NCBI GenBank assembly: GCA_028684095.1
Contig: JAQUGQ010000003.1
Location: 68,979 to 123,634, forward strand
Length of the DNA: 54,656 nt
Reading direction: 5' to 3'
Source of the DNA: Clostridia bacterium
GTDB taxonomy: Bacteria; Bacillota; Clostridia; TANB77; CAG-465
Part shown: positions 5,586 to 35,573 of the stretch, piece after piece
Position numbering within the stretch: the first letter of the stretch is position 1
How the letters are laid out: the number at the start of each line of letters is the position of its first letter
Program-made: the position numbers and the translations under genes
The notes under the pieces: generated by a model
Seen by the model: the letters and a program-made list of their open reading frames with translations, nothing else
Database searches by the model: none
Told to the model about the DNA's origin: nothing

Positions 5586-6131
5586 TCAATTCTCTATATC
5601 ATTAATCATCATCTGTTCATCTTTAATTTTAAGCTGATCATAACTTGGAAGCTCAGATATATTCTTTATGTTACAATTTTTTAGAAACTCTTTTGTAACC
5701 GAATATATGGCTGGCCTTCCTGGAATACTAAGCCTTGCAACCTCTTCAACTAGTCCACACTCTAATAGTCTACCTACTGCAAAATCACTGCTTACTCCTC
5801 TTATTCTTTCTATTTCTGATTTAGTTATTTTAGGATTATATGCAATTATTGTTAGTGTTTCCATAGCGGACGTTGATAAATTTTGTCTCTTAGTATTTTC
5901 AACAAATAATTTTATATTTTCATAATATATTTTATTTGTTACAAGTTGCATACTATCTTCTGTTATATATAAAACTATAGTATTATTATCATTATATTTT
6001 TGTTTTAATTTTTCTATAGCAATATTTATATCACTAATATTAACTTGAAGTGTTTGTGATAGTTCATCAAAAGTAACATCTCTACCTAAAGCAAATAATA
6101 CCGCTTCTATTATATTATCTAAATTTTCCAT
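5586..6131 (-). CDS. scpB: Segregation and condensation protein B
   Basis: ScpB is the winged-helix (kite) subunit of the SMC-ScpA-ScpB condensin, which compacts and segregates the chromosome. The 181-residue protein has the family opening (IIEAVLFALGRDVTFDEL) and the second winged-helix segment LSTSAMETLTIIAYNPKITK followed by IRGV and GRPAIYSVT. The partner scpA is usually adjacent but is not here. It lies 14 bases downstream of the IleRS-like gene and 10 bases upstream of addB, so it is probably co-transcribed with both. Confidence 0.93.
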   Translation of the reverse strand: MENLDNIIEAVLFALGRDVTFDELSQTLQVNISDINIAIEKLKQKYNDNNTIVLYITEDSMQLVTNKIYYENIKLFVENTKRQNLSTSAMETLTIIAYNPKITKSEIERIRGVSSDFAVGRLLECGLVEEVARLSIPGRPAIYSVTKEFLKNCNIKNISELPSYDQLKIKDEQMMINDIEN

Positions 6132-6145
6132 TTAATGTCCCCCTA

Positions 6146-8878
6146 TTAGTTATTTTCTAAAATATTAGCACAATCATTACATAAATAACGATATTTAACG
6201 TGCCTTCCAACATCATTTTTATAGTTATGACATCTTTCGCATTTTTGTCCGTCAGATTTTTGAACAGTAACATTAAATTTGTCAGAAACCTCTATATCAA
6301 GTTGTGATACATTTAATGCTCTTAAGATATCATTAATGTTTTGATTCACAAAATCACTTAATTCTTTTTTACATTCTACTATAACATGAGCTTGTAATGT
6401 ATCTCCAATTATTTTTTCATTTTGAGCTTTTGTTATATACTTATTTATTTTTGTTTTGAATTTAAATATACTATCCCATTTTTCATATTCTTGTACAAAA
6501 CTAAAATTTTCTTTATGGTTATTTTCTCTCTCTACTAATAAAGATTTAGAATTTTCTAAATATGAACAACATTCTATGAAAAGATATGGAATAATCGGCC
6601 CAAGATAAATTTTTAACATATTAAATAAGTCATATAATGTTGACTGTGAAGATCTCCTAATACTATCATTTGTATCTAATATATACAAGTTATATTTTAT
6701 AGCATTAAAGTATTCTTCACATAATGTTTCTAAACAAAAATCTTTAATTAAAACATATGCTTTATAAAAATCAAATTCATTATAACATTTTATAAGTTCT
6801 AAATGTAAACTATTGATTTTTACATAAATATATTTATCTAAATCTGTTCTACTTTGAATATCAATATAATTCTCATCATAGTCTAAATCTAGTATATTTG
6901 ATATAATAAAACTAAGTGTTTTTCTTATGTTAGTATATATTCTTTCTTCATATTTTACATTATTTTCATCTATTAAGATAGTTTTACTTTTAGATTTATG
7001 CAAAGCCCATAGTCTTAATATATCTGGGCCATATTTGTTTATTATATCGTCAATATCTATATTAATTACAATAAATTCTTCTTTGTCTTTAATATCTTCC
7101 TTTAAATAGAATTTAGGTATTCCTAAAATCTTCTTATTTTTAAGTATATTACCATATATAAAAAATTTATCTATTTTTTTCATTTCTTCATTAAATTTAT
7201 CATAGTATCTATTTATCTCTAAACTTTTAATAAATTTATCAATATTAGAAATAAATATGTTATATGTTTTATCATAATTTGTATTCACGGTAGCTATATC
7301 TGATGATAATATTTCAAATGACTCATTAAATAAATTCTCGTTTTTAAAAAAGAAAATACCACCACATTCACAAACTATCGTTCCATCTAAAAGCTCTTCT
7401 GGAGTCATTTTATATAATTTTTCTACTCCATGTTTTTGTATTTTTTCTTTATATTGGTTAATAACTTTATCATTAATTATCTTTTTATTGCATATAGCAC
7501 AACTTATTATAGGAATATTAACACCTTTATTTGTATTTTTTGATATTTTTAAATATTTAGATTTTTTATCTGGTATATTAATTTTAATACTTGCTTTTTT
7601 TAATATTTCCATTATATCTTTTTCAATATCCTCATTATTATTTTCGTTTATATACCATTCAGAAAGATATCTATATACAAGCCTGCTACCACAATTAGCA
7701 CATTTAGACATATTAATTTTATCTGTATCAATAAATAATAACAAATCTGATTTTCTAAGGTCTTCAATTATTTCTAATTCTACTTCCTTATAATTTCTAA
7801 ATTTATAATCATAGGCAAAAACATTTACTTTCCCATCCATATCAATATAATTTCTTACTTGACCTAAATTATTTTCCTTAAATATTGTATATTCTAAATA
7901 GCTATGTGCTGGTGTTATTGTCATTGTAGCAGTATTAATTTTTGATAAATCAATATTGGTAGTTATACATTCAATTTTTTTATTATAATCTATAGGACTA
8001 GAGCATACTATTTTTTGTAACATTTTTCCTGACAATGTCTTTTTTACTTTATAATCAAAAACAAGTGCATTTGCCATATAATCATCAACATATTTACTTG
8101 CAATTATATAATGCACTGTTATTCCAAAACTCGATTTAGTTTCTACTATACTATATTCTTCATTATTTTGAATCGCAAGATTACTAATTCCTATCAAAGT
8201 CCATGGTCTTATAGTTGAGGCAATCAAAAATGTGTTTCTTAAATTATTATATTCGGCTAAAATATAATCAGGATCATCTTCAACTCTAAATAATATATGA
8301 TAATTTTGAACATTTATCTTATTCTTAGAAACCTTCATATTTTTACATTTTGTACAACATTTAGTAGGCATATCTTCACTATATATTTTACCTGTATTAT
8401 ACAATTCAAAAAATGAATCAATCATTTTTTTAGCAAATTCTATATTAACAGTAGTTCTATATGTTTTTACAAAATCAATAATACTTCCAGATTTATTTAT
8501 AGTATTAATTTCTTTTTTAATTATATCATTCATACTTTTGTATTCTTTATTATCATTTTCAATGCTATTAGTGTATGAAAATAATAACTTTGTTTCAGTT
8601 ACTTGTCCAGTTATAAGAGAATATCTAATTATAATATCTTTTAAAATATTACCCAAAAGATCGTTATTACTAAGTTTATTATCTAATTCAATTGGCATCT
8701 CAGATATATATGTTTTATATCTAGAGTTAGAGTTTTTTGTCAATGATTCTTTGTAATTATCACTAGTTAATAGTTTATTAGTAAAATACCCCGTCCTTAT
8801 TTCTAAACTTGCATATACATTTAGAACTTTTTTATGCAGATTTAAAGTTTTTTCAAAGTTTTTATTATTTCTATCCAT
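6146..8878 (-). CDS. Isoleucyl-tRNA synthetase-like protein with destroyed catalytic motifs
   Basis: The protein is collinear with bacterial IleRS over 910 residues, but the active site is gone. The segment GNILKDIIIRY (75-85) matches the sequence that follows HIGH, yet HIGH itself reads SNND (70-73). The expected KMSKS position before INKYGPDILRLW has no KMSKS. The synthetic-core motifs WCISRQRRWG and DVWFDSG are also replaced. Retained are the editing-domain entry (TIRPWTL), the middle zinc site (CANC...YRYLSEWYI), GVNIPI, and the C-terminal zinc knuckle with Cys 880, 883, 900 and 903. It cannot plausibly activate isoleucine; binding tRNA or another nucleic acid is a guess. The frame is intact and embedded between the DUF362 and scpB genes. 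A functional ileS should exist elsewhere. Confidence 0.85.
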   Translation of the reverse strand: MDRNNKNFEKTLNLHKKVLNVYASLEIRTGYFTNKLLTSDNYKESLTKNSNSRYKTYISEMPIELDNKLSNNDLLGNILKDIIIRYSLITGQVTETKLLFSYTNSIENDNKEYKSMNDIIKKEINTINKSGSIIDFVKTYRTTVNIEFAKKMIDSFFELYNTGKIYSEDMPTKCCTKCKNMKVSKNKINVQNYHILFRVEDDPDYILAEYNNLRNTFLIASTIRPWTLIGISNLAIQNNEEYSIVETKSSFGITVHYIIASKYVDDYMANALVFDYKVKKTLSGKMLQKIVCSSPIDYNKKIECITTNIDLSKINTATMTITPAHSYLEYTIFKENNLGQVRNYIDMDGKVNVFAYDYKFRNYKEVELEIIEDLRKSDLLLFIDTDKINMSKCANCGSRLVYRYLSEWYINENNNEDIEKDIMEILKKASIKINIPDKKSKYLKISKNTNKGVNIPIISCAICNKKIINDKVINQYKEKIQKHGVEKLYKMTPEELLDGTIVCECGGIFFFKNENLFNESFEILSSDIATVNTNYDKTYNIFISNIDKFIKSLEINRYYDKFNEEMKKIDKFFIYGNILKNKKILGIPKFYLKEDIKDKEEFIVINIDIDDIINKYGPDILRLWALHKSKSKTILIDENNVKYEERIYTNIRKTLSFIISNILDLDYDENYIDIQSRTDLDKYIYVKINSLHLELIKCYNEFDFYKAYVLIKDFCLETLCEEYFNAIKYNLYILDTNDSIRRSSQSTLYDLFNMLKIYLGPIIPYLFIECCSYLENSKSLLVERENNHKENFSFVQEYEKWDSIFKFKTKINKYITKAQNEKIIGDTLQAHVIVECKKELSDFVNQNINDILRALNVSQLDIEVSDKFNVTVQKSDGQKCERCHNYKNDVGRHVKYRYLCNDCANILENN

Positions 8879-8911: not shown

Positions 8912-10018
8912 TTATTTTCTTTTGAATGTCAATATGTGTTTAATATCTACAGCATAAACTGGACAATGCTCACTACAGCAAAAACATCTTATACATTTAC
9001 TTTTATCTTTTAAAACAACCTTGTTATTTATTAGTTTAAGAGCATTTACCGGACATCTATCTATGCATAGTTTACATCTAATACATTTGTTACTATCAAA
9101 TATTGGGTATGGTTTAACAAACTTTGTTAAATTAAATACTCGTGCAAATTTTTTTTTAGACAAAGTATCTGGAAATTTAAAATCTTTTATTATTATATCT
9201 TCTAGTTTTTCTCCAACTATTTCAATACTACTTGGATTAGTAAGTATACCTCTTTCAATACTATTTTTTACTATATATGAATCTTCTAATTTCAAATTTA
9301 TTAATTTAGTTACTAAGTAATCAATTTCAAATTGATTACTTGAAGCAATTATTAAACCAGTATGTCTAGGACTTCCAGAATTAGGGCCATTACCTTCCAT
9401 TGAATATATAGCATCCACTATTGTTATCTGATTTTTAACAAAATTTGAAATGTCTATCATAGCATTTGAAAAACTATCATAATTAGAATACAGTGAATGT
9501 ATTTCTGCTTTTCTTTCTCCTGGTATTATACCAAATAAATTTTTAACTGAACATGTTAAATTCATCATTGCATGTGTTTTTAATTTAGGAAGGTTTACAA
9601 CTAAATCAGCATTTAATATTGGTGATATAATTTCAATATTTTTTATAAGTTTTCCATTTATATTGACCAATTTAGATGTAGTATCTAAATTTAAAATAGC
9701 ACCTATTTTCTCTATTTCTAAATATCCTAATTTTTCATATAATTTTAATAAGTTTTTTTTGTTATATTTTCCTGGCGGACTATCACAAATTGTACACTTA
9801 GCTCCAAGAGAAATTACTCTTTTTGCAATACATTTTACAAATAAATGATGTGTAGTTGTAGCAGTACTTTCATCCCTTATAGCTAATAAATTGGGCTTTA
9901 ATACTATATTCATTCCCTTTACAATTTTTTCGTTTATTCTTAATTTATCGAATATTTCTTGTATTACAATATCTAGTAATTTTTCATCGTATACTTCACA
10001 TTTATATATTCCTACCAT
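8912..10018 (-). CDS. DUF362 domain protein with C-terminal 2x[4Fe-4S] ferredoxin
   Basis: The first roughly 290 residues match the DUF362 family, which often occurs fused to ferredoxins. The C-terminus carries two Cys clusters, CIRCKLCIDRCP and CIRCFCCSEHCP, typical of paired [4Fe-4S] sites. The likely role is electron transfer or iron-sulfur-dependent redox chemistry; the substrate is unknown. I chose the ATG at 10018 over one at 10036 because it has AAGAGGT seven bases upstream, whereas the longer start lies before that SD site. The gene then overlaps the rpe end by 17 bases, implying translational coupling. Confidence 0.85.
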   Translation of the reverse strand: MVGIYKCEVYDEKLLDIVIQEIFDKLRINEKIVKGMNIVLKPNLLAIRDESTATTTHHLFVKCIAKRVISLGAKCTICDSPPGKYNKKNLLKLYEKLGYLEIEKIGAILNLDTTSKLVNINGKLIKNIEIISPILNADLVVNLPKLKTHAMMNLTCSVKNLFGIIPGERKAEIHSLYSNYDSFSNAMIDISNFVKNQITIVDAIYSMEGNGPNSGSPRHTGLIIASSNQFEIDYLVTKLINLKLEDSYIVKNSIERGILTNPSSIEIVGEKLEDIIIKDFKFPDTLSKKKFARVFNLTKFVKPYPIFDSNKCIRCKLCIDRCPVNALKLINNKVVLKDKSKCIRCFCCSEHCPVYAVDIKHILTFKRK

Positions 10019-10721
10019 TATTACCTCTTTTATCATTTATTATATCTTCAATTTTTATTATTTTTTCTGAAATATCAGATATGTTTTTAGTAATATAACT
10101 TCCAATAACAAAACTACTTACACCCAAATTATTTGGTTTAATTATTGTAATATCGTTTATTCCTCCATCAATTTGAACTATTTTTTTCATATCTATAGCT
10201 ATCTCTATTTTTTTATTTACTTTATTCATATATTTTTGTCCACCAAGTCCTGGTTCAACACTCATTAAAAGTATAACATCACACATGCAGGAGTAATTAA
10301 ATATTTTTTTTATATCTGTTCCAGGTTTTATAGATAGACCAATAGATAATTCTTTATTTTTTATCCTAAGATCATTTTTTACTATATTTAAATATTTTAA
10401 ATTCTTATAAATATTTTCTATTTCATAATGTATTGTTATATTATCTGCTCCTAGTGAAATAGCTTTATCTATATATTCCTTAGGATTACTACACATTAAA
10501 TGTACATCTACAAAAAAATTATATTTTTTAACAAGTTTAATTGAATCTAAACTTATTCCAATATTTGGTACAAAATCACCATCCATTACATCAAAATGAA
10601 TTGATATATTGTCAAACTTATTTTCTTTTCTAAATTCATCTAGACTAATTAAAAAAGAATCTAAATCCTCTATATTTAAAATAGATATTGAAATAGTTTT
10701 CCCATTTAAAAAATTATCCAT
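10002..10721 (-). CDS. rpe: Ribulose-phosphate 3-epimerase, divergent
   Basis: A TIM-barrel enzyme that interconverts ribulose-5-phosphate and xylulose-5-phosphate. The metal/catalytic strands are visible: HFDVMDGDFVPN, DVHLMCSNP, SVEPGLGGQKY and QIDGGI, ending in the phosphate-binding segment FVIGSYI. The sequence is more divergent than housekeeping Rpe (for example in the substrate-closing loop), but all main motifs remain. The start at 10721 has AAAGAGGTG five bases upstream; a longer ATG at 10748 lies inside the rsgA end. Its position after rsgA matches the usual Firmicutes prkC-rsgA-rpe order. Confidence 0.88.
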   Translation of the reverse strand: MDNFLNGKTISISILNIEDLDSFLISLDEFRKENKFDNISIHFDVMDGDFVPNIGISLDSIKLVKKYNFFVDVHLMCSNPKEYIDKAISLGADNITIHYEIENIYKNLKYLNIVKNDLRIKNKELSIGLSIKPGTDIKKIFNYSCMCDVILLMSVEPGLGGQKYMNKVNKKIEIAIDMKKIVQIDGGINDITIIKPNNLGVSSFVIGSYITKNISDISEKIIKIEDIINDKRGNNGRNI

Positions 10722-17005: not shown

Positions 17006-17416
17006 TTATCCTCTTTTATGTAAATCTTTTAAGAAAACACTGAAATTTGGTAAATCTTTTGAAATTATATCATACATATATTCACATGTTATCTCATCAT
17101 AATTAAAAATTAATTTATTTCTAATATCTAACATATTAGTATACATGTCCAGATTTTTAGGATCTAATTTACCATTTTTACAGAGTATATCAAAAATTTC
17201 ATTATAATTAGAGCCATTTTGAAGCTTAAATTTCTGGGTAGTATGAACAGCTAAAAAAATAGCTGTTTGTATTGCACCATACATATACGTTTGTGATGCA
17301 GCAACATTTTTGGGATTTTCACAAAAACTTTTTTTGTTTAGTTTCAAAAAATTTGATAATTCAATAACACATTTCTTAAAAAACTTTACTTTATCTGCTA
17401 TTACTTTATTATCCAT
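17006..17416 (-). CDS. HepT-like (DUF86) protein lacking the catalytic histidine
   Basis: This 136-residue, all-helical protein resembles HepT/DUF86, the RNase toxin of HEPN-MNT toxin-antitoxin pairs. The family segment with R-x4-H-x-Y near the C-terminus is recognisable as DIRNKLIFNYDEI: the Arg-Asn and the Tyr that is AMPylated in HepT are present, but the catalytic His is Phe. An MNT nucleotidyltransferase partner is not adjacent. It lies 11 bases downstream of def, probably in the same transcript. It is probably not an active RNase; a binding or scaffold role is a guess. Family assignment is moderate. Confidence 0.55.
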   Translation of the reverse strand: MDNKVIADKVKFFKKCVIELSNFLKLNKKSFCENPKNVAASQTYMYGAIQTAIFLAVHTTQKFKLQNGSNYNEIFDILCKNGKLDPKNLDMYTNMLDIRNKLIFNYDEITCEYMYDIISKDLPNFSVFLKDLHKRG

Positions 17417-21560: not shown

Positions 21561-22941
21561 CTAACTTATAATATCTAAAATTACTGGATTTGATTTCAGA
21601 ACATTAGCCATAGATTGTTCTATCTTATCAATATATATTGCATTAGTAATATATTCAAATGCATCATTAAACTTTTGTTTATCATTATATAATACAGTAA
21701 GTATTACATCACCTTTTTTAACTTTACTACCAACTTTTTTAGAAAACTCAAATCCTACACCATAATCAATCTTATCTTCTTTTTTATTTCTAGATCCACC
21801 TAATGCTACTAATGCTTCTCCAATTTTCTTACTATCTATACTTACTATATATCCATCTTTATCTGCATATATTTCTTTCATATATTTTACTTCGTCTAGT
21901 AAAACAGGCATATCTAAACTTAAATTCAGCCAATCCATGTATACTTTATGTATATGTCCGCCTTGTGATTTAATTAGTTCAATAAATTTATCGTATGCTT
22001 TTCTAGATGTTATACATTTCATAATTTCAAGTTTATTCTTTTCAATATCATCTTCAATTCCAGCCATTTTCATCATTTGAGCTGCTATCTCAAATACAAC
22101 TCCTTTTAATTCTTTATTTTCATAAAGTGCAAGTGCTGACTCATCAGCTAGTAAAAATGAAATTGCTTCTTTTATTTCTACAACATTACCAACACTCTTT
22201 CCAAGTGGTTGTTCCATCGATGTAATTATTGCTTTAGTTTCTACACCAGCTCTTTTACCTATATATACCATGGTTTTTGCAAGTTCTTTTGCACTTTTTA
22301 AATCTTGCATAAATGCTCCACTACCTACAGTCACATCTAGTACTATTTTATCAGCACCAGATGCCAATTTTTTACTCATTATAGAAGATGCAATCAAAGG
22401 AATTGATGATACAGTAGCTGTTACATCACGTAATGAATAAAGTTTCTTATCCGCAATTGCAATTTCACTACTTTGTGATATAAGACAAACACCTATATCT
22501 TGAACTTGCGCAATTGCTTCATCCAAAGGTTTATATAAATCATATCCTTTAATAGATTCTAATTTATCTGCTGTACCTCCAGTATATCCGAAGACCTTTA
22601 CCTGACATTTTGACAACTTTAACTCCAAGTGCTGCTACAATAGGAAGAACAAGTAATGTTACTTTATCTCCAACACCACCTGTAGAATGTTTATCTACTA
22701 TTATAGTACCATCTTCTTTAAGTACTGATAAATCTAACGTTTTAGCAGAATTTGCCATAGCTTTAGTTAAATAAAATAATTCATCACTTTCCATACCATT
22801 TAAATAAATAGCCATAAGCAAAGCTGACATTTGATAGTCAGGAATCTTTTCATTTACATATTCAGTTATAAAAAAATCAATTTCTTCTTTACTTAAAACC
22901 TTTTTATCTCTCTTTTTTTCAATAATATCATAAATTCTCAT
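21561..22941 (-). CDS. pdp: Pyrimidine-nucleoside phosphorylase, requiring a +1 frameshift at CGG
   Basis: Phosphorolysis of uridine/thymidine/deoxyuridine in pyrimidine salvage. The reading frame is in two parts. The first 117 residues (start 22941) include VDKHSTGGVGDKVTL and KMSGKGL. The expected next residues GYTGGTADKLES are in the +1 frame and continue to 21561. The switch is at 22590: codon 117 CTT is followed by C-GGA, so frame zero reads CGG. Skipping the C gives about 459 residues (family about 435), all motifs intact. In frame zero a TAA follows eight codons later. No other lesion is visible. Options are a programmed shift, a sequencing insertion, or a recent mutation. Confidence 0.88.
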
Positions 22942-33758: not shown

Positions 33759-35573
33759 ATGAAAGGATTGATAATTAAAATGATTAGGTATTTAGGAATA
33801 GTAAATTATTTAAGTGATATATCTCATAGTGATTATATAGAAAAAACATATGATAACTTAAAAAACAAATTCAATATAGCCCAAAAATTAGATTTATTTA
33901 AAACAAATCATATCAATCTATCAAATGGTTTTTTAAATAAAAGTTTTAATAAAGATAGATATGTCATTATGTATAATGGTAATATCTTTAATATAAAGGA
34001 AATAAAAAAACAGTTAAGTAATAAAGGATATAAATTTAGTACTAAGACAAACTTAAAAAAAGAAAAAATTATACCTATTCAAAATATTGATAACTACTTG
34101 GAAGCAGAAATTTTATTAACAAGTTATCATGAATATAAAGAGAAATTTTTGGAACATTTAAATGGCACATTTTCTATATGTATTTATGATAAAACAAATA
34201 ACATAGTATTTCTTTGTATAGATAGAATTGGTATCGAAACTTTATATTATACTAAAAACAAAACAGATAATTCTTTTATATTCTCTACAAATATAAAGGA
34301 CATACTAAATGTTCCTAACATGAAAGCAGTTTTAGATAAACAAGGCATACTTGAATTATTTGGTATTGGTCCAATTCACAATCCAGGGTATACATTCTTC
34401 AAAGATATTTATAAATTATTACCAGGACACTATGCAATATACTCAAATATTGGACTTGTAACTCATAAATATTGGGATTTAAAACCCAAAGAATGTAATG
34501 ATAATGAATTACAATATATAAATAATATGTATTCATTAATCAAAAAGTCTACTAAAATTCAAACAAATGATACCGAAAGAATTGGATTGCTATTTTCAGA
34601 AAATATTAATTCAGGTATACTTATAGAAGTTGTAAGTAAAATATTTCCTACAGTAAATACATTTTCATATAATATTATTGATACCAATAAAAAAAATAAA
34701 AGTTCAAACTATATAAATATATTCAAAAAGCATTATAACATTGATAATTATAACATAATTTCTGATACCAAAGTTCTTTATTCATTACTTATCCCAGCAA
34801 TGATGGCTAGAGATATGCCTGGAATGGCATATTTAGATTCTACTATATTTGAATTTTTTTCATCAGTAAAGAATAGTGGTATTAATAAATGTATATCTAG
34901 TTTATGTAGCAATGAAATTTTTGAAGTAAATGATATATCAACTACTGGGTTTCCATTATGCCTTTCTACAAATATTAGAAGTAATTTAATAAATAAAAAT
35001 ATAGGAAATGAGCAGATATTACAGGAATATTTTGATATAATATATAACAGTGTTATTAAGGATGTAATATTTTTAGATAATGAAACTGAATATGATAAAA
35101 CTATTAGAACAAATAAATATGTAAATATTAAATTGTATATAAGTTCCCTAGTTCAAAGAATAAATCACATTTCTTCTAACATTAATCTAGAAATAATGCT
35201 CCCATATTTAGATTATAGAATAATAGAATATATATATAATATACCAAATCATATAAATACAAATAATTTACTTAAAAAAATATTTAATAAAAATTTTCCT
35301 AATACTACTTCAATTTTAAATACATCATCTAAAATGTGTAATTCAAATTATACAAACATGCTAGAACATGAAATAAAAAAAATATTAAATGATAATAGTT
35401 CTAAACTATTAAAAGTAATTGATAAAAATTACGTGTTACAAATTTTAAATTCAAAAGGTTCTAATTTAATGATAAATAAAAATGATGAGCTTATATCATA
35501 TACTCAAATATTAGCTTATCTTATACAAATTGAATATTGGCTTAATATATACGATATAGAACTTGAATTTTAG
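33759..35573 (+). CDS. Asparagine synthetase B-like protein lacking both active sites
   Basis: The 604-residue protein follows AsnB from end to end. The glutaminase domain is recognisable by NGNIFN (73-78; AsnB has NGEIYN), LNGTFSICIYD and the ASE-type segment FIFSTNIKDIL. The nucleophile Cys after the initiator Met is missing: the N-terminus reads MIRYLGIVNYL. In the synthetase domain the PP-loop SGGxDSS is replaced by SENINSG (280-286), while EIMLPYLDYR still matches the family LE-x-R-x-P-F-L-D segment. Neither ammonia release nor AMP-forming chemistry is likely. Start is 33759 or the ATG at 33780. The frame has no lesion and ends in a strong terminator. Function unknown. Confidence 0.8.
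   Translation: MKGLIIKMIRYLGIVNYLSDISHSDYIEKTYDNLKNKFNIAQKLDLFKTNHINLSNGFLNKSFNKDRYVIMYNGNIFNIKEIKKQLSNKGYKFSTKTNLKKEKIIPIQNIDNYLEAEILLTSYHEYKEKFLEHLNGTFSICIYDKTNNIVFLCIDRIGIETLYYTKNKTDNSFIFSTNIKDILNVPNMKAVLDKQGILELFGIGPIHNPGYTFFKDIYKLLPGHYAIYSNIGLVTHKYWDLKPKECNDNELQYINNMYSLIKKSTKIQTNDTERIGLLFSENINSGILIEVVSKIFPTVNTFSYNIIDTNKKNKSSNYINIFKKHYNIDNYNIISDTKVLYSLLIPAMMARDMPGMAYLDSTIFEFFSSVKNSGINKCISSLCSNEIFEVNDISTTGFPLCLSTNIRSNLINKNIGNEQILQEYFDIIYNSVIKDVIFLDNETEYDKTIRTNKYVNIKLYISSLVQRINHISSNINLEIMLPYLDYRIIEYIYNIPNHINTNNLLKKIFNKNFPNTTSILNTSSKMCNSNYTNMLEHEIKKILNDNSSKLLKVIDKNYVLQILNSKGSNLMINKNDELISYTQILAYLIQIEYWLNIYDIELEF

Follow-up and report, generated by a model that had tools for sequence, protein, structure and literature searches.

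Can a full-length isoleucyl-tRNA synthetase (IleRS) that has lost its catalytic motifs still be worth encoding, and for what purpose? The question is raised by a gene in the window, by which we mean the whole stretch of 54,656 nucleotides of a Clostridia genome that was analysed. A first, sequence-only reading described this gene as a full-length IleRS pseudo-enzyme inside a housekeeping operon, in which selection would act on the binding of tRNA or on the zinc sites and not on charging. Here we compare the gene with the working enzyme of the same family of bacteria, with its orthologues, and with the synthetase paralogs described elsewhere.

A handful of synthetase families are known to include paralogs that do not charge tRNA. 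Among them, LeuRS-I of the Sulfolobaceae and LeuRS2 of the Halobacteria are class Ia paralogs that bind tRNA with little or no charging, while SLIMP, an insect mitochondrial SerRS paralog, and HisZ, a HisRS paralog, are non-charging proteins with new functions, SLIMP binding tRNA without charging it (PMC9437257). LeuRS-I, LeuRS2 and SLIMP thus set a precedent for synthetase paralogs that keep tRNA binding after charging is lost. All differ from the gene studied here: the first two are archaeal LeuRS, of which LeuRS-I still makes leucyl-adenylate, and SLIMP and HisZ belong to class II and have known partners (mitochondrial SerRS and LON for SLIMP, HisG for HisZ). A family of full-length dead IleRS was not found in the open-licence papers searched, where the IleRS-derived variants were IleRS2 and SbzA, both active.

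The gene and its predicted structure

The frame begins with ATG, contains no internal stops and has the length of 910 residues first given for it, with gaps of 33 bases on the side of the DUF362-ferredoxin gene and 14 on the side of scpB (Table 1). A Shine-Dalgarno sequence lies ahead of the start codon in the paralog copies that were inspected. The homology to IleRS is not due to chance. Pfam profiles matched at 2.1e-16 (Anticodon_1, PF08264) and 7.1e-11 (tRNA-synt_1), IleRS entries of the PDB at 1.4e-44 by sequence and 3.2e-54 by fold, and the NCBIfam ileS model TIGR00392 at 2.8e-51, its 174.7 bits lying below the curated cut-off of 621.4.

An AlphaFold2 model, computed from 42 aligned sequences of paralogs and IleRS, has the full IleRS fold with a mean pLDDT of 84.5 and a pTM of 0.76, although it may lean towards that fold because rows of working IleRS were present in the alignment. 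The longest stretch of low confidence, residues 585-602, is the former KMSKS loop. The closest solved folds are all IleRS, the first at a TM-score of 0.67-0.69, and they include the S. aureus IleRS-tRNA-Ile-mupirocin complex 1qu2. The IleRS architecture read from the sequence, with its CP1 domain, anticodon bundle and C-terminal zinc domain, is confirmed by profiles, by PDB fold matches and by the model; domain boundaries were taken from alignment and model and are accurate to a few residues.

Table 1. Features of the IleRS paralog locus, in window coordinates
Feature	Coordinates	Strand	Basis
IleRS paralog, 910 aa plus stop, Shine-Dalgarno aaggagttattaaATG	6146..8878	-	Pfam, NCBIfam and PDB searches, alignment
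Former HIGH site, now SNND, residues 70-73	8660..8671	-	alignment
Zinc Cys C175, C178, invariant in 13/13 paralogs	8345..8356	-	alignment
CP1 editing domain, residues 196-372, fold retained	7763..8293	-	alignment, model
Zinc Cys C393, C396, invariant in 13/13 paralogs	7691..7702	-	alignment
Zinc Cys C460, C463, invariant in 13/13 paralogs	7490..7501	-	alignment
Zinc Cys C503, C505, invariant in 13/13 paralogs	7364..7372	-	alignment
Former second Rossmann half (DVWFDSG, KMSKS replaced), residues 513-612, low-confidence Lys-rich loop at end	7043..7342	-	
Stem-contact (post-KMSKS) segment, residues 613-665, YGxDILRLW..YxxIR..SN	6884..7042	-	
Anticodon-binding helical bundle, residues 666-838	6365..6883	-	PF08264 2.1e-16, model
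C-terminal zinc finger, residues 873-910	6149..6262	-	profile, alignment
scpB	5586..6131	-	Pfam; context, association not conserved
DUF362 and 4Fe-4S ferredoxin gene	8912..10036	-	Pfam; context

Loss of the catalytic and editing residues

When the paralog is aligned to real IleRS, HMGH becomes SNND, DVWFDSG becomes NESFEIL and WCISRQR becomes LKISKNT, and at the position of KMSKS there is a variable, non-conserved Lys-rich loop or insertion. Nowhere does the 910-residue frame contain a string resembling HIGH or KMSKS, and the strings H.GH, KMSK, D.WF.S and W.SRQ are found in none of the 13 paralogs described below, two of which, from genomes G084 and G086, are incomplete at one end. Alignment and string search thus agree with the motif loss originally noticed. 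Judged by these motifs, the paralog has lost amino-acid activation and charging. A complete ileS is present elsewhere in the same genome, on contig C1 (L002:1411-4206), as the sequence-only reading would have it; it encodes 931 residues and has HMGH, KMSKS, DVWFDSG and WCISRQR.

The editing domain had also been thought to be kept, and this is true of the fold; its catalytic residues, whose roles are those assigned in E. coli IleRS, are largely gone. It is conceivable that CP1 hydrolyses mischarged tRNA and that the paralog is a trans-editing factor, since the domain is present and well predicted in the model and the amino-group-binding Asp position is occupied by Asp in 11 copies and by Glu in two. 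However, the His of VHTAPGHG is replaced in all 13 paralogs, the TTTPW threonines (the T-rich motif) have for the most part disappeared, as has the PGN Asn, and only 5 of 30 enzyme-conserved CP1-editing residues are kept. By its editing residues the paralog does not class as an IleRS editing factor; editing has almost certainly been lost too, and we consider a trans-editing role highly improbable.

Retention of a zinc knuckle at the C terminus was correctly recognized at first, and it extends to the internal zinc sites, so that 12 zinc cysteines are retained in total, eight in CP1 and four at the C terminus. The latter (residues 880, 883, 900 and 903) do not vary among the 12 copies that extend so far; the G086 copy runs off its contig. 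Within the C-terminal finger the RCW of the enzyme is altered and a new conserved YR stands at residues 896-897; as the RCW tryptophan is gone, anticodon reading is probably altered or lost.

Distribution and origin

Orthologues occur in 13 of the 36 genomes of a single Clostridia family (group code f1), spanning two genera. Searches of 37 relatives, a 287-genome sample of the order and a 391-genome sample of the class yielded none outside this family. A pattern scan of 84,980 species genomes, which requires an exact short motif and could therefore miss distant members, recovered ten known carrier metagenome-assembled genomes (MAGs) of uncultured Clostridia, the rest being distant loci. Those distant loci that were placed in the tree are ordinary synthetases, among them scan matches L049, L051 and L052, which have HMGH and group with ordinary IleRS; the scan added no paralog outside the family.

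The 13 paralogs form a single clade (SH-aLRT 100) that branches inside the family's own IleRS1, and they share a single origin. Support is weaker (92-98) at the point where the clade attaches to IleRS1, and the stem is long. Identity to IleRS1 is about 23-26%, and in the tree the paralog evolves faster than ileS. From its placement the paralog appears to be an old duplicate of the family's IleRS1 (ileS1, TIGR00392), with which it has in common the fold, domain order, N-terminal TLNLP leader, CP1, anticodon bundle, zinc cysteines and descent. In contrast to IleRS1, it has neither the class I activation motifs nor the editing His, and it scores 175 bits against a cut-off of 621. In the G005 paralog (L017 / L122) the C terminus is extended by about 300 residues with abundant Asn, Thr and acidic side chains.

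Of the 36 family genomes, 34 contain an ileS that scores above the curated cut-off. Genomes G022, with the paralog, and G063, without it, have none although they are rated 96% complete, and these assemblies are probably incomplete at ileS. The type of working IleRS was read from length, profile span and motifs, with a subset checked in sequence. Eleven carriers have IleRS1 and one (G013) has an atypical IleRS2-like enzyme, while the paralog is missing from all 14 genomes that have IleRS2 of the usual type (Fisher p 0.003). Phylogeny confounds this association, which we treat as no more than a lead. The working IleRS of G013 (L133, contig C21) has 1051 codons and 758 bits to TIGR00392, with HHAWG for HIGH and KFSKS for KMSKS. 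IleRS2 is described as a mupirocin-resistant, eukaryote-like and active enzyme (PMC4861432). Like the paralog it is another IleRS type that occurs beside or instead of IleRS1, but it is active and of ancient separate descent, whereas the paralog is an IleRS1 offshoot that is inactive by motif.

Genomic neighbourhood

Comparison of the neighbourhoods gave no support to a meaningful position in a housekeeping operon or to a link with scpB. The order DUF362-paralog-scpB is seen only in the two closest genomes, G000 and G001, and in G002, of the same genus, the DUF362 gene directly adjoins scpB with 14 bases between them and the paralog is absent. In the other genus, most paralogs lie 3' of yabP/yqfC-yqfD-ybeY-dgkA-cdd-DUF3298 and 5' of a D-Ala-D-Ala carboxypeptidase gene, and in non-carriers the slot after DUF3298 is occupied by other genes. 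The G005 and G013 paralogs are at other sites. A conserved operon partner was rejected, as the flanking genes are present at sites that lack the paralog, and no gene accompanies it from one site to another. With variable sites and no constant neighbour, the paralog is an accessory gene that has moved. A defence system was likewise rejected, neither the paralog nor the genes sharing its slot having a PADLOC match. No T-box was found in the paralog's own genome or near the paralogs, and no linked tRNA gene in the fetched neighbourhoods except that of G013, where the paralog (L125) comes right after a tRNA-Lys-Glu-Thr cluster, beyond which lies prfA.

Elsewhere in the window, positions 33759-35573 (+) encode a second dead full-length paralog, an asparagine-synthetase-like protein of 604 residues in which the N-terminal MCGI cysteine is absent and SENINS stands instead of the SGGxDS loop. 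Its counterpart in G001 (66% identity) has the same losses, the relatives examined retain the SGGxDS loop, and another AsnB relative is present on contig C11 of the same genome. On the minus strand, by eye, a pyrimidine-nucleoside phosphorylase-like gene in two overlapping ORFs looks frameshifted (21561-22941) and a manganese-dependent inorganic pyrophosphatase-like gene is split across two overlapping ORFs (48879-49809); a lone HepT-like gene (PF01934) at 17006-17416 has no obvious adjoining MNT partner.

Selection and the shift of constraint

Close pairs of paralogs gave dN/dS values of 0.07-0.29 (Nei-Gojobori); for the working enzyme, taken from these genomes or related ones, the range was 0.08-0.15. 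These values and the segment pN/pS values below demonstrate purifying selection on the paralogs, as initially proposed. Absence from 23 of the 36 family genomes makes the paralog dispensable, and a pseudogene or decaying duplicate without function might be suspected from its patchiness, from its faster evolution than ileS and from the copy of one MAG (G084), which has a frameshift near residue 65 and 874 other open codons. That frameshift may be an assembly error or a real lesion. Frameshifts or stops in relatives would count against the sequence-only reading, and this single copy does so; the others have no such lesion. The low dN/dS in all close pairs contradicts decay, as do open frames of at least 910 codons at about 30-35% identity, ribosome-binding sites and invariant zinc ligands, which together leave it the least probable of the explanations considered here.

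Positions conserved in the enzyme are kept unevenly by the paralogs. Retention stands at 5 of 75 across the two catalytic halves and at 11 of 87 in CP1, compared with 22 of 49 in the stem-contact, anticodon-bundle and C-terminal parts (Fisher p 8e-7 against the catalytic halves and 5e-5 against CP1); residues of the anticodon bundle may have been retained for structural reasons. Within close pairs, the second catalytic half has a pN/pS of 0.04-0.06 in the enzyme and 0.16-0.60 in the paralog, while that of the stem-contact segment is comparable (0.09-0.19 and 0.06-0.23, respectively). The second catalytic half is the slowest-evolving part of working IleRS and the fastest in most paralogs, in which the stem-contact segment evolves most slowly. 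The G000/G001 pair departs from this, its former catalytic half (0.16) not being the fastest segment, so that the other genus shows the reversal most clearly. Constraint has moved from the catalytic half to the tRNA-contact parts. Residue retention, pN/pS and the cysteines show constraint concentrated on the tRNA stem-contact, anticodon-binding and zinc parts, in line with the selection on tRNA or zinc-site binding first suggested. The paralogs carry a mean net charge of +13, versus -20 in the family's working IleRS; the shift is greatest in the anticodon bundle (+2.7 versus -9.0) and at the CP1 zinc entry (+4.2 versus -5.2), and AT-driven Lys enrichment may contribute part of it.

The old Rossmann pocket could have acquired a new enzyme activity, SbzA-like or that of another transferase. 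SbzA is listed as an IleRS-like ligase of altemicidin biosynthesis (PMC9437257, Table 1), and as it transfers Ile it is active. It is like the paralog in being IleRS-derived with a non-translational role, and unlike it in that the paralog has no activation motifs or biosynthetic cluster. Retention of the full fold and some newly conserved residues in the pocket region would suit such an activity. The pocket nevertheless has no conserved set of charged or nucleophilic residues and is the fastest-evolving region in most copies, and no biosynthetic genes were seen beside the paralogs in their neighbourhoods, which makes a new activity improbable.

The rival that carries most weight is a protein-interaction role like that of HisZ, in which the paralog would be a scaffold or regulatory subunit, possibly a partner of the working IleRS, and its tRNA binding would be vestigial. 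Values of pN/pS below 1 in every segment place the whole protein under selection, the dead Rossmann halves included, and these halves have new paralog-specific conserved residues (N518, I543 and F549). The paralog also occurs alongside IleRS1 in 11 genomes and with the usual IleRS2 in none of 14. Yet this association is confounded by phylogeny, the stem-contact segment is the slowest-evolving part, and comparison of the neighbourhoods yielded no co-varying partner gene. A scaffold is on balance unlikely, though a serious contender.

A probable tRNA-binding pseudo-synthetase

By its descent from an aminoacyl-tRNA synthetase, its lost catalytic motifs and the housekeeping copy elsewhere, the paralog belongs with the pseudo-synthetases. 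An active site that has been erased while the tRNA-gripping parts and zinc sites stay under selection points to a real protein with a new, probably tRNA-binding job. Our preferred reading, to which we give a probability of roughly 0.55, is that the paralog is a non-charging pseudo-synthetase that binds tRNA. We infer the binding, the tRNA concerned and the effect of binding, with the constraint pattern and the charge as indirect evidence for the binding. The stem-contact, anticodon-bundle and C-terminal zinc surfaces would take up a tRNA, either tRNA-Ile or one related to it, and the paralog would hold or present it stoichiometrically as a tRNA-binding regulator or chaperone, with charging left to the intact IleRS encoded elsewhere in the genome. 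Against this reading stand the lack of a conserved partner gene that would hint at a pathway, the patchy distribution and the one frameshifted copy.

More tentatively, these genes may represent an undescribed Clostridia family of full-length, silent IleRS paralogs that act in trans to IleRS1 as dedicated binding regulators of tRNA-Ile, or of charged tRNA-Ile, in which constraint has moved from catalysis to tRNA docking.

Conclusions

Annotation pipelines could call such paralogs ileS, which calls for caution. The family offers a natural experiment: it has 13 copies, most carriers also have the intact parent enzyme, and close relatives lack the gene. One can ask which regions of a class I synthetase merit retention after the loss of catalysis, and whether a tRNA-binding shell of 900 residues is of any regulatory use to a bacterium.
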